From the NCBI GenBank assembly GCA_025450375.1, contig JANWHO010000219.1:1-6136 (forward strand): a DNA stretch of 6,136 nt. Direction: 5' to 3'. Position numbers and translations under genes: made by a program. Each line of letters begins with the position of its first letter. The first letter of the stretch is position 1. The DNA comes from Chloroflexota bacterium (GTDB taxonomy: Bacteria; Chloroflexota; UBA5177; JANWHV01). Shown one piece after another: positions 2,803-6,136 of this stretch. The notes under the pieces were generated by a model. The model searched no databases and was not told the DNA's origin. It saw only the letters and a list, made by a program, of their open reading frames with translations.

Positions 2803-2952
2803 ATGCCTCCGTCGCAGGCACTCCACGCCCATCGTAGCGATCTCCGTGAAATCGCTGTCCTGCACAGGGTACGTAAAAAGGGAAAGATGCGCCTTCGTAA
2901 TCGGCGTACACGTCCGATCAGCCCGCATCGAGAAGCATCTCGACCAAGCTAG
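2803..2952 (+). pseudogene. 5' remnant of a MntA-type (MNT) nucleotidyltransferase gene
   Basis: An ATG preceded by GGAGGAGGA (2790-2798) opens a 49-codon frame. Its first 24 residues include PPSQALHAHRSDLREIAVLH and end in RVR, the usual N-terminal helix of minimal nucleotidyltransferases (pattern PS.AL..HR..LR.IA..H.VR). In the family this runs straight into N-x-R-V-F-G-S and then S-D-x-D, the nucleotide- and metal-binding core. Here it is replaced by a basic, unrelated tail (KKGKMRLRNRRT...) that ends at a TAG. All catalytic residues are therefore missing. Full-length members act as AMP-transferring antitoxins with HEPN partners. The last 35 bases overlap the 3' end of the convergent hydrolase gene. 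Either the gene was truncated when that DNA arrived, or the tail is a real but non-catalytic product; a remnant is more likely. Confidence 0.65.
2875..2906 (-). terminator. Possible weak intrinsic terminator of the hydrolase operon
   Basis: Reading the minus strand just past the hydrolase stop, a short stem CGCC/GGCG with a 9-base loop (2906 to 2890) is followed 4 bases later by TTTCCCTTTTT (2885-2875). The stem is only 4 bp, so ending by this hairpin alone would be inefficient. Confidence 0.25.
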
Positions 2953-5398
2953 CAAGCAACCGTACGTCCTCCTCGGAGTCGGTTTGGCTATACTCGGTTG
3001 GATCGCGACTCGCCCATAGCTCACCTATGACATATTCATTGCCCGCCGGGACAAGTTGAACGGTGAAGATGCAGTCGCCTGTCCAACTGCGATGAAAGAA
3101 GAGCGTGCTTCCTTCGAGATAGATGAACCACCGATCTTCCATTTCCTCGGGAATCAGGCCCAGTGCTATCCTCTTGTACTCATCGGCGCTGAAGGTGCGG
3201 CTATAAGCGAGTTTTGTTTTGCGCTCCGGGAGGGGTTTGACGCGCCAGTCGGTGGCCCGTGCCTGCCGCGGCGCCTGCTTTTTCAGGCCCAGCGTGTCGG
3301 TCCCGCTATGAACGGCGTTGTGGCGTTGCTCCTTGGTCTCCAACCGCGTGTCCATACCTGGATTACCACCTCCGTGTGCCAGTGCATGGAGACCGCGGGC
3401 AAGGACGGTCAATTCGTCTCTGTATTCCAACTCGGGGAGTAGGCGCTGGGGCAGGGCGGCCTCACCGCCCAGGGCGCCGCCCAGGGTGCCGGCCATCGCC
3501 GCCACCGTATCCGCGTCATGGGCCGCGTTCACGGCCAGCAGCAGGGATTCCTCCACGTTATCCGGGGATCGCAAGAAGCAATACAGGGCGGCCGGGAGGC
3601 TTTCGAGGACATAGGCCCCATTGTGGAGTCGGGCAAACACTGCCTCGGGATCCCAGGTCAGCAGTTCGGGAAGCGTGCCAATTCGATCGTGCAGGGTGGT
3701 CAGAATAGAGGGATCGCGTCGTTCAGGAAGCGGTTCCGGCTCCAGTCCGGCAATGGCAGCTTGCACGGCGGTGATGAACTCCGCGACCGTCCAGTGGCTC
3801 GGTTCTCGGGTGAGCAGCCAGGCGGTAGCGGCGGCCATGGCCACCGCGCCGGCCGCGCCCATGGGTTGGCGGTGAGTAGGAAGGGAGGACAGCACGGCCT
3901 CGCTCCGCAGAAGGGCAGGCTGGCGGTAGCGAAGCAGGCCAATTGGAGCCGAGCGCATGGCCGCCCCATTCCCCGAGCTTTCCTCCCCGGCCAGGTACCA
4001 GGGTATGCCCTGGGTCAGGCGCTCCACGGCTGCCCGCGTCGCCCTACCCTCGCCTCGGGCGTGCGGTAACCAGGCGACGAAGCGACGGGCGAGATCCTCG
4101 GGGTCGAGGAAACCACGGTGAAGCAGACACTCCGCCACGCACATGGTGTGTTGGGTGTCGTCGGTAATCGTGCCGATGGGACCGCTACGCCAGCTCCGCC
4201 AGCGGTGATAGTCCGCCAAGCGGCCAAAGCGCTCGCGTACCCGTTCCGGACTCCGACCCTCGGCGGGACGACCCAGTGCGTCCCCCATGGCGCCGCCAAG
4301 CAGGGCGGCAATGAACCGCGTCTCGGCTGCCGATATCGCGGGCGGAACAGGAGCGGCTCGAACGGATACTGCCGGGGCGGAAAGCCCGGATCCAAGCTCC
4401 AATAGCTGGTCGGCCAACTCGATGGCATCGACGGGCCAGTACACCTTCGGCCGGGGTTGCCGCACCCCAGGCTTCCCCTCCTCCGGCCGGCAACCGAGCA
4501 CCGCCTGGCGCCATTGCTGGGGGATCGCGTCCACCCCATGGATGGCGCCAAGCAGAGCGCCCGCGATGGCCCCGTTGGTATCGGTGTCGCCGCCGCCCAT
4601 CACGGTCGCCACCACGCCTTCCTCGAAGGTGGCGGCATGCAGGGCCTGGAAGAAAGCGTTCTGGAGCGCCACCAGCACATGGCCTTTGTTGTGGCCAAAG
4701 TCGGGCGGACTGGTCCGGGCCGCCGCGAGGGCCGCCGTGATGGTGGGACTGCTCCCATGTTCGCGATCCCAGGCACAAGCGACCTCGTAGGCAGCCTCCC
4801 CGTTCAGGCCGTCACGAATCACCGCCGCCACCGCCACGATGAAGGCCGCCGAAGCGTCCTGGCACACCTGGTTGGGATGGGTGAGCACGGTGTCGATCCG
4901 CGCCTGGCGATCCAGGATCGTGCTGGGCAGGGAGGACCCGAAGATGGCCAGCGGACTCTGGCGCATCAGTGCCCCGTTCGCCTCACTCGTGCTGGGCCCG
5001 GCGTCCCGCGCCGCTTCGGCCAGGCTGCCGACTTTGTCGCGCGCCATGAGCATGGCGCTGAGCGCGTGTCCGATGGTGTTACCGACATCGAACGGGTCGC
5101 TCGCCAGCCAGTCCGCGTAGGCGCCGGCCACCGCCTCGGGGTCGAAGTCGCCCACCGCGATGAGCGAGCGGGCCAGAGCGAGGGCCAGTTCGGAGTCGTC
5201 GGTCGGCTGGCCGGGCAGGGTGCGCCAGACGGGACTGGGGCCGATCAGCCGCAGCCCGTTGGGATAGAGGCGGCGAATCGCCTCGGCGGTCTTGAACTCG
5301 ACCATGCTCCCCAGGGCGTCGCCCGCGAACTGGCCAAGCAGGCATCCGCGCGCTCGGCTCGCGGTAGGGTCGTCGGTGCGCGGTGTGTCGTCTGCCAC
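2918..5398 (-). CDS. Tandem ADP-ribosylglycohydrolase with C-terminal module
   Basis: This 826-residue soluble protein has two ADP-ribosylglycohydrolase (ARH/DraG) domains, which use two divalent metal ions to remove ADP-ribose from proteins or small molecules. Domain 1 (about 15-335) has GQFAGDALG (22-30), TDDS (66-69), NGALMR (141-146), His174 and GGDTDTNGA (269-277), then PRPKVYWPVDAIELADQLLE, the usual end of a standalone member. Domain 2 (about 360-672) repeats the set: GGAMGDALG (368-376), TDDT (412-415), NGAAMR (477-482), His509 and HDADTVAA (627-634). Both metal-ligand pairs (TDD and D.DT) are intact, so both sites may work. After a polar linker (673-728) comes a module (about 729-826) with IPEEMEDRWFIYLEG (749-763) and FFHRSWTGDCIF (767-778), which I cannot name. 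A GTG start is set by AAGGAG (5405-5410) 6 bases upstream. The upstream HTH gene ends 10 bases before. Single ARH proteins are about 300-350 residues, so this is a fusion of two distinct members. The substrate is unknown. Confidence 0.9.
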   Translation of the reverse strand: MADDTPRTDDPTASRARGCLLGQFAGDALGSMVEFKTAEAIRRLYPNGLRLIGPSPVWRTLPGQPTDDSELALALARSLIAVGDFDPEAVAGAYADWLASDPFDVGNTIGHALSAMLMARDKVGSLAEAARDAGPSTSEANGALMRQSPLAIFGSSLPSTILDRQARIDTVLTHPNQVCQDASAAFIVAVAAVIRDGLNGEAAYEVACAWDREHGSSPTITAALAAARTSPPDFGHNKGHVLVALQNAFFQALHAATFEEGVVATVMGGGDTDTNGAIAGALLGAIHGVDAIPQQWRQAVLGCRPEEGKPGVRQPRPKVYWPVDAIELADQLLELGSGLSAPAVSVRAAPVPPAISAAETRFIAALLGGAMGDALGRPAEGRSPERVRERFGRLADYHRWRSWRSGPIGTITDDTQHTMCVAECLLHRGFLDPEDLARRFVAWLPHARGEGRATRAAVERLTQGIPWYLAGEESSGNGAAMRSAPIGLLRYRQPALLRSEAVLSSLPTHRQPMGAAGAVAMAAATAWLLTREPSHWTVAEFITAVQAAIAGLEPEPLPERRDPSILTTLHDRIGTLPELLTWDPEAVFARLHNGAYVLESLPAALYCFLRSPDNVEESLLLAVNAAHDADTVAAMAGTLGGALGGEAALPQRLLPELEYRDELTVLARGLHALAHGGGNPGMDTRLETKEQRHNAVHSGTDTLGLKKQAPRQARATDWRVKPLPERKTKLAYSRTFSADEYKRIALGLIPEEMEDRWFIYLEGSTLFFHRSWTGDCIFTVQLVPAGNEYVIGELWASRDPTEYSQTDSEEDVRLLASLVEMLLDAG

Positions 5399-5410: not shown

Positions 5411-6047
5411 ACTCGGCCTCTTCCAGCCAAGCGCGCTGCTGCTCGGGGGTCATATCATGGGCCGAACGGATCGCATCGGCGAAGGATTCCTTCCAGGCAT
5501 CCCTGAGCATCGGCGGTTCGTCGCCGAGCATAACCCGTAGGGTGTTCATATCGGCGCCGAGCAATCTGGCAAGGCGTTCAATAAAGCGGGTAGGCACGGT
5601 GGAGACATGAATCATGTGCTTGACCAACCTCCACATTAGATCCCTGCCAACCCCAAGCTCGCTGGCCAGAGTATCCAGGGAGAAACCGAATGCATCGATG
5701 TAGTCATACAGGTTGTGCCAGTGGCGGCCGGGATTGGCGAAGGCGGTGGCCAGGATGCGGCGCTCGAAGCTCAGATCGTACTTTTCGATAGCGTCGCGCA
5801 CCCAATCATCCAGCGGCGTTTCGATCAGTGCGAAGTGCGCGGCGGCAAATTCGGCCAATTGGGAGGCGTAGTCTGGGTGTTCCAGGATCAAAGTCTCAAG
5901 CGAGACGGGACCGGATTCCTGGTCACCGGGCGGGAACCAGGGCGACTCCGCTGAGTCAGGCTCATTCCTGTCCACTCTTCCGGCCGCGTACCGCTCGGCA
6001 AGTCCGAAAAGCACGTCATCTCGCTGCTCGGAGGCATTCTCGCTCAC
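5409..6047 (-). CDS. Helix-turn-helix protein, likely regulator partner of the upstream sigma factor
   Basis: This is a 212-residue soluble, acidic protein. The N-terminal part (1-50) is polar and probably flexible. An LILEHPDYASQLAEFAAAH segment (53-71) is of a kind seen at the N-terminus of sigma-linked regulators. The middle (80-115) is charged and helical. The segment FGFSLDTLASELGVGRDLMW (120-139) continues through LVKHMIHVSTVPTRFIERLARLLG (141-164), and this forms an Xre-like helix-turn-helix with the following IERLA..L helix. The C-terminus has FADAIRSAHDMTPEQQRAWL (189-208), a tail I associate with HTH proteins encoded beside ECF sigma factors and ImmA/IrrE-type peptidases; no peptidase motif (HEXXH) is present here. 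The GTG start overlaps the upstream TGA as GTGA, with AGGAGG (6058-6063) 10 bases before it. It may act as an anti-sigma or DNA-binding modulator controlling the hydrolase operon; this role is inferred from position. Confidence 0.7.
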   Translation of the reverse strand: MSENASEQRDDVLFGLAERYAAGRVDRNEPDSAESPWFPPGDQESGPVSLETLILEHPDYASQLAEFAAAHFALIETPLDDWVRDAIEKYDLSFERRILATAFANPGRHWHNLYDYIDAFGFSLDTLASELGVGRDLMWRLVKHMIHVSTVPTRFIERLARLLGADMNTLRVMLGDEPPMLRDAWKESFADAIRSAHDMTPEQQRAWLEEAE

Positions 6048-6136
6048 GATTGCAGTTCCTCCTCGTAAAATGCGCGCAAGGGCCCTTCCGCGTCGTGGAG
6101 ATAGTTCCCTACCATCTTCGTGCTCACTCCCATGGC
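6044..6136 (-). CDS. ECF-like sigma factor, C-terminal end (partial)
   Basis: The last 30 codons and TGA of a gene that continues beyond the right edge. Residues GVSTKMVGNYLHDAEGPLR, followed by AFYEEELQS, resemble the recognition helix of sigma region 4 (pattern GVS..TV.NYL..A...LR), which reads the -35 element. With the HTH gene overlapping its stop by four bases, a sigma plus regulator pair is plausible. A different HTH protein, such as a LuxR-type regulator or another protein ending in such a helix, cannot be excluded because only the tail is visible. Confidence 0.5.
   Translation of the reverse strand, partial: AMGVSTKMVGNYLHDAEGPLRAFYEEELQS

Follow-up and report, generated by a model that had tools for sequence, protein, structure and literature searches.

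How many kinds of ADP-ribose linkage can be erased by a single polypeptide? The question is raised by a stretch of 6,136 nucleotides from a Chloroflexota bacterium (assembly GCA_025450375.1, contig JANWHO010000219.1), the whole of which is called the window here. One open reading frame (ORF) of the window encodes a protein of 826 amino acids in which two ADP-ribosylglycohydrolase (ARH) domains are followed by a C-terminal tail domain. The known erasers of ADP-ribosylation are described as three families, namely, macrodomain, ARH/DraG, and NADAR (PMC11833690). Fusions of two ARH subfamilies occur repeatedly and offer a natural test case for the erasure of two linkages by a single polypeptide. 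The window protein is interpreted here as a two-headed ADP-ribosyl hydrolase of two specificities, with an accessory tail domain, acting in an ADP-ribose network. From the sequence evidence, this reading is given a probability of roughly 0.55.

Two Complete Sets of Metal Motifs in One Polypeptide

The family ADP_ribosyl_GH (PF03747) matched the protein in two stretches with 427.6 bits (cut-off 26.2, E 3.8e-128), the best of which covers residues 364–652 and model positions 1–287. When the N-terminal (N) and C-terminal (C) halves were searched separately against PDB sequences, the top match of the N half was DraG (2woc, E 1.7e-27), and the C half found the Thermus protein 2cwc as its best match (E 2.1e-24) along with MJ1187 (E 1.3e-23). 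The metal motifs of ARH enzymes are described as E...[ST]DD[TS]...D.D[TS], and in ARH1 and ARH3 the loss of even one metal ligand is reported to abolish activity (PMC6309922). Both halves carry these binuclear-metal motifs, as E34/TDDS/DTDT in the N half and E380/TDDT/DADT in the C half, and the two flap glutamates occupy matching alignment columns. The other motif residues of the N site (T66-D67-D68, N141-G142..M145-R146, T173-H174, and D271/D273/T274) pair one to one in the alignment with those of the C site (T412-D413-D414, N477-G478..M481-R482, T508-H509, and D628/D630/T631), and all are present in both.

A sequence-only reading of the same DNA had claimed two intact ARH sites, and this claim is borne out. 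The same reading had regarded the HDADT of the second half as an oddity, which did not hold up. By comparison with relatives, it is an ordinary D.D[TS] metal motif: alignment A2 contains 21 relatives, and 13 of them have YDTDT (8), YDADS (3), or YDADT (2) at this site.

Both ARH folds are predicted with confidence. Over the full-length model, the predicted local distance difference test score (pLDDT) is 80–98 for most ten-residue blocks of the two domains, with a minimum of 73, and the top solved structural match is DraG (2woe, E 3.6e-14). The alignment behind this model includes no tail relatives; the two segments with a pLDDT below 50 are given in Table 1.

Different Subfamilies in the Two Halves

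Two markers are described for DraG enzymes: an extra Asp near metal I (Asp97 in R. rubrum) and the ExxA adenine motif (Glu121 in R. rubrum) (PMC7050489). The first is found in the N half as D104, and the same column holds Asp in all 28 N halves of the proteins with the N–C order. In the C halves of these proteins, it holds Gly (27/28) or Arg (1/28) and never Asp (0/28); the window C half has G449 there, in a stretch that adjoins an alignment gap. The second halves of the 18 proteins with the reverse, C–N order have Asp in 13 cases, Ala in 2, and a gap in 3. The second marker is missing from the window N half, in which STSEA precedes NGALMR, and the cut-off of the DraG equivalog TIGR02662 was not reached (241.7 bits vs. 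337.05). Because of these two shortfalls, the N half is named DraG-like rather than DraG. Its best solved relatives are nevertheless the DraG structures 2woc, 2woe, and 3g9d, with which it shares the metal motifs as well as the DraG Asp, whereas the protein as a whole differs from DraG in having two ARH domains and a tail. The earlier remark that this is not an ordinary DraG was therefore fair. The best solved relatives of the C half are of the Thermus 2cwc, MJ1187, and ARH3 type. They have the TDDT...D.DT motifs in common with it and likewise no DraG Asp; this is a likeness of sequence and metal motifs, and the window C half, unlike them, belongs to a two-headed protein.

A tree was built from 67 domains, representing a selection from the 121 proteins introduced below and 8 locus ORFs. 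The N-type domains form one clade (support 100/99, branch length 1.37), and their fused partners are spread over three other ARH clades. The first of these is the window's own C clade, in which the N-type domain comes first. In the second, it comes first in P0030 and P0031 and second in P0043, P0048, P0060, P0065, and P0079. The third contains P0090, with the N-type domain first. Of the seven C–N proteins sampled, P0092 and P0113 have a second half that groups with the third clade rather than with the N clade; for these two, the N label given by the profile is loose. The placement of one long branch (L017b) is unsure. Judged by the tree and the DraG Asp, the two halves are separate ARH subfamilies and not products of a recent duplication, as had been proposed.

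Domains of the N type are also encoded on viral contigs. A standalone N-type ARH on an 85-kb IMG/VR viral contig (L018:4980-5987) has 61% identity (best segment) to the first domain of the window protein, and N-type ARHs on four further viral contigs (L019–L022) have 44–48% identity to it.

The Tandem among Relatives

The sample of relatives consisted of 121 proteins, i.e., P0001 and 120 listed of 1076 significant hits (7997 candidates were scored), and each half was labeled N or C according to its best-scoring profile. The N-then-C order was found in 28/121 proteins. Because so many proteins share it, the ARH–ARH fusion is not a sequencing error, and the possibility that two genes had been fused by such an error fails. 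A C-like half precedes an N-like half in 18/121 proteins (including P0043, P0045, and P0048), and one protein has two N-like halves. The source names of three relatives belong to Chloroflexota (Chloroflexia, Herpetosiphonaceae, and Chloroflexi). On the evidence of these sequences, the ARH tandem is a common architecture inside a known enzyme family. No description of it was found in the literature searched, as far as the texts were available, and the phrase "two ADP-ribosylglycohydrolase domains" was absent among the matches listed.

An inositol-monophosphatase-type (IMPase) domain is listed for 69/121 proteins. The literature search found no paper on a fusion of ADP-ribosylglycohydrolase and inositol monophosphatase. 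Three of the 18 double ARH proteins with the C-like half first are listed with such a domain.

A site was scored as intact when [TS]-D-D and D.D[TSA] were present at the six aligned metal-ligand columns, a definition by which the first half of P0024, with Ala at the last column, is counted as intact. By alignment, 34/47 two-domain proteins are intact at both sites. In P0075, P0076, and P0078, the motif was clipped by the domain borders and found in the full sequence, which brings the number to 37/47. One half is cut short in P0093 (1/47).

A Nameless Tail Domain

The tail, with its 114 amino acids, had no match in Pfam, NCBIfam, or PHROGs. Sixteen relatives of 95–173 amino acids were found, and the domain is conserved in independent proteins, in agreement with the conserved third module that had been claimed earlier. 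In alignment A1 (18 rows), the residues G, P, M, E, D, W, F, H, R, S, W, and G are invariant in the tail; G, P, M, E, D, and W of these belong to the motif at 747–757, and H, R, S, W, and G belong to the motif at 769–774. Among 17 further relatives from fusions and loci, position 754 is Glu or Asp in all (17/17), W757, R770, and S771 are each kept in 16/17, and H769 and W772 are each kept in 15/17, with D755 in only 6/17. An acidic residue at 754 in 35/35 tail sequences and Arg770 in 34/35 suggest a polar site, which is predicted to comprise acidic 754, Trp757, Arg770, Ser771, and usually His769. An attempt to align standalone tails together with tandem proteins (A3) gave a misalignment and was not used.

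When modeled on its own, the tail reached a pLDDT of 92.0 and a predicted template modeling score (pTM) of 0.85. The predicted order is two short strands, a helix, a four-strand meander, and a long helix, and no clear match was found among solved or viral structures. The strings "HRSWTG", "EEMEDRW", and "MEDRWF" were found in no paper of the literature searched. Judged by its conservation, the tail is a domain of its own whose core, M(E/D)..W / HRSWTG, is conserved. It has no name in the libraries and literature searched and is a more novel element than the tandem.

Three ARH proteins carry the tail, namely, the window protein (ARH–ARH–tail) and P0071 and P0094 (both IMPase–ARH–tail). They came from an ARH-driven search and are therefore not independent evidence of a link between tail and ARH. 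Searches driven by the tail brought P0138, which is NUDIX–tail–unassigned–TIR, and P0139 from Aeromonas, which is NUDIX–tail. In P0140 (Paracoccus), the tail is joined to a part without a Pfam match. As for the three-part order described in the sequence-only reading, the ARH–ARH pair is common, whereas the tail is joined to it in the window protein only (1/28 N–C proteins). The middle of P0138 was considered as a macrodomain and rejected; AF1521 was found only at E 0.23–0.72, and the TAL-repeat matches that scored better appear to be artefacts of repetition.

Plasmids that carry tail homologues belong to Pseudomonadota, Actinomycetota, and, in one case, Chloroflexota; two genomes from the same phylum as a Clostridia metagenome-assembled genome carry them as well. 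Thirteen plasmid records had a tail match, and all 13 neighborhoods were inspected; L006, L008, and L012, two of which are from Streptomyces, have no gene table and were checked by ARH and tail profiles only. In Rhodobacter sp. CZR27 (L002:8930-10262), an IMPase–ARH gene has NUDIX and the tail next to it, each in a frame of its own. The similarity of the Aeromonas NUDIX–tail protein extends along this locus, and the Aeromonas version is one continuous protein. In the Aeromonas locus, a gene annotated as ADP-ribosylglycohydrolase scores 15.7 bits against a cut-off of 26.2, a WYL gene adjoins it, and SNF2 and DUF262 neighbors match defence-system models. For five other Streptomyces loci and for those of Paracoccus and Tritonibacter, the gene table, which is incomplete, lists no ADP-ribose-linked neighbor.

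Two plasmids may be mentioned separately. On a 4.7-kb Paracoccus plasmid (L003:2942-3808), a protein of 288 amino acids with an unassigned N-terminal part and a tail adjoins a CcdA/CcdB pair. On a Herpetosiphon plasmid (L016:6959-7330), a divergent tail copy directly follows a YD-repeat protein, in the place expected of an immunity gene. The last 399 amino acids of this YD-repeat protein have no Pfam match; their identity as a transferase was suggested by eye only and was dropped, as Pfam gave nothing and PDB gave only an unrelated isomerase (E 1.6).

Proposed Function and Alternatives

In the two-headed reading, each head would have a binuclear-metal ARH site of its own; the first head is DraG-like, and the second belongs to another ARH subfamily. 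With both heads tethered, a single polypeptide would be able to release ADP-ribose from linkages or acceptors of two kinds, such as an N-glycoside of arginine and an O-glycoside of serine or phosphate, possibly in a protective, anti-ADP-ribosylation role. Nucleic-acid substrates are conceivable as well, because a bacterial ARH-like enzyme is described as acting on phosphate-linked ADP-ribose on RNA (PMC11833690). The HRSWTG domain, held on a flexible linker, would recognize or further process the ADP-ribosylated target or the released ADP-ribose. More specifically, the tail could be a new reader or enzyme in the ADP-ribose network, one that serves as an add-on to ARH, IMPase–ARH, NUDIX, and NUDIX–TIR proteins and here delivers targets to the two differing heads. 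This part of the reading is tentative and is rated somewhat below an even chance. If the tail binds or processes ADP-ribose, it is a new component of this network. Joined to ADP-ribose enzymes in several proteins, it is the part most worth testing. It has a short signature and a model of high confidence, and its length of about 115 residues is suited to expression and crystallization. The observation made in the sequence-only reading is confirmed, and its interpretation as a whole is partly supported.

Several results weigh against this reading. Among the five ORFs scanned in the 6.1-kb window, there is no ADP-ribosyltransferase. The tail is present on only 3/121 ARH proteins, and a defensible ADP-ribose-linked neighbor or fusion was found in only 2/13 tail plasmid loci (Rhodobacter and Aeromonas). 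Of the two genomes found with the tail, one has an ARH gene and the other has none. In the tails of P0071 and P0094, His769 is replaced by Cys and Phe, respectively, and Asp755 is replaced by Ala in both; because of these losses, the odds of the new-domain reading of the tail were slightly lowered. Finally, metal ligands are substituted in one or both sites of 9/47 two-domain proteins, which counts against a universal paired role of the two heads. Set beside the 37 intact proteins, these nine indicate that the pair of sites is usually kept and that either head can change.

The protein might instead salvage soluble ADP-ribose derivatives (phosphorylated or acylated ADP-ribose or NAD(P) breakdown products) rather than repair macromolecules. 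The IMPase-type domains of so many relatives and the NUDIX–tail fusions of P0138 and P0139 would suit such an enzyme. However, no small-molecule-specific feature was found in the protein, and ARG domains are argued by Iyer et al. to prefer macromolecular adducts (PMC9503650). Salvage is considered rather unlikely.

An equally doubtful alternative concerns the tail, which could be a chaperone-like domain that binds peptides, or one of the immunity type. Without taking part in ADP-ribose chemistry, it would hold targets that are misfolded or ADP-ribosylated. Its predicted helix, four-strand meander, and helix resemble the TY-chaperone as described in the source available, with a five-strand meander and two helices on one side. 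The Herpetosiphon copy in the position of an immunity gene and the exchange of His769 in two proteins also fit this view. Nevertheless, the conservation of acidic 754 and Arg770 suggests a polar site, and the seven weak Pfam matches of 18 tail members, with Pfam not checked for TY-chaperone models, include no chaperone or immunity family.

Less probable still is the explanation that only the DraG-like first head works and that the second, a pseudo-enzyme that is decaying or regulatory, has retained its ligands by chance. It draws on the substituted proteins: ligands are changed in the second half only in four N–C proteins (P0017, P0018, P0020, and P0021), in both halves in three more (P0022, P0023, and P0025), and in the second half of P0026, whose first half is cut short. 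In the ninth substituted protein, P0072, the change is from Asp to Glu in the N-type half. The second head of the window protein, however, has lost none of the twelve motif residues and also retains the flap glutamate, and both sites are kept in most of the two-domain proteins. The idea that the tail's join to the ARH pair is a chimera or an assembly artefact could appeal to the single N–C tandem with a tail and to the GC content at third codon positions (GC3: 0.86 and 0.75 in the ARH domains, 0.65 in the tail), which fits a later addition of the tail without proving it, but it is very improbable, as the ARH-then-tail order recurs in P0071 and P0094, the frame is open throughout, and the stop comes after the last predicted tail helix.

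Comparison with Known Systems

The two-headed protein can be compared with two further systems. Tri1 immunity ARH (6dre, 6drh) has the ARH fold and is a solved relative of both window halves. It is distinguished by the score of the window protein, 156.2 bits against the Tri1 equivalog cut-off of 490. Toxin families, DraT, and nitrogenase were all absent from the five window ORFs scanned.

ARG-centred host systems are predicted to combine an ARH, without a coupled transferase or sirtuin, with Nudix/WYL regulators, phosphatases, and chaperones, and they are proposed to reverse ADP-ribosylation made by viruses (PMC9503650). Within what is described there, the likeness includes an ARH with no transferase or sirtuin visible among the five ORFs scanned in 6.1 kb, phosphatase-type fusions in relatives, and the Nudix and WYL genes of two plasmid loci that carry the tail (L002 and L004). 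The window has no Nudix or WYL gene, and its neighbor is a weak HTH_31 protein. In addition, rhodanese-type, calcineurin-like, HD, and HAD phosphatases are named by Iyer et al., whereas the relatives here carry IMPase (PMC9503650). In the main text of that paper, as available, "inositol monophosphatase" and "IMPase" are absent, and "tandem" is used only for other domains. In our reading, the window protein is probably closely akin to the ARG-centred host systems predicted by Iyer et al. 2022.

Layout of the Locus

The features of the minus strand are collected in Table 1. Ten bases, including GGAG, lie between the stop of the upstream gene and the start of the 826-amino-acid ORF. The 212-amino-acid helix-turn-helix gene and this ORF are possibly on the same transcript and would then be co-expressed. 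Plasmid relatives of the 212-amino-acid protein were searched for, and none were found. A sigma-factor-like identity of the frame further upstream was considered and not retained, as its 30 amino acids have no Pfam match.

Table 1. Positions in the window of the two-headed ARH gene, its domains and motifs, and the frames upstream of it.
Feature	Position	Strand	Remarks
ORF, ARH(N)–ARH(C)–tail	2918..5398	-	826 aa; GTG start at 5398; frame open throughout
First ARH domain, residues 10–335, DraG-like	4394..5371	-	PF03747; DraG 2woc; D104
N-site metal motif TDD, residues 66–68	5195..5203	-	alignment
N-site metal motif D271-T-D273-T274	4577..4588	-	alignment
Inter-ARH linker, residues 336–357	4328..4393	-	residues 341–353 pLDDT <50
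Second ARH domain, residues 358–675, other ARH subfamily	3374..4327	-	PF03747; Thermus 2cwc; own clade
C-site metal motif TDD, residues 412–414	4157..4165	-	alignment
C-site metal motif D628-A-D630-T631	3506..3517	-	alignment
Linker to tail, residues 676–712	3263..3373	-	residues 678–757 pLDDT <50 in full-length model
Tail (HRSWTG) domain, residues 713–826	2921..3262	-	no library match; 16 relatives; own model
Tail motif GLIPEEMEDRW, residues 747–757	3128..3160	-	conservation in alignment A1
Tail motif HRSWTG, residues 769–774	3077..3094	-	conservation in alignment A1
Upstream gene, 212 aa, weak helix-turn-helix	5409..6047	-	HTH_31 E 0.0041, 17.8 bits vs. cut-off 27
End of further upstream frame, 30 aa; stop overlaps start of 212-aa gene	6044..6136	-	

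Three other frames are found in the rest of the window. The one at 1067-1402 on the minus strand, with 111 amino acids, has no family above the cut-off in Pfam or NCBIfam. On the plus strand, a VTT/DedA-type membrane protein (97-843) and a UbiA-type prenyltransferase (1456-2367) are encoded; both score above the Pfam cut-off and below every NCBIfam cut-off.

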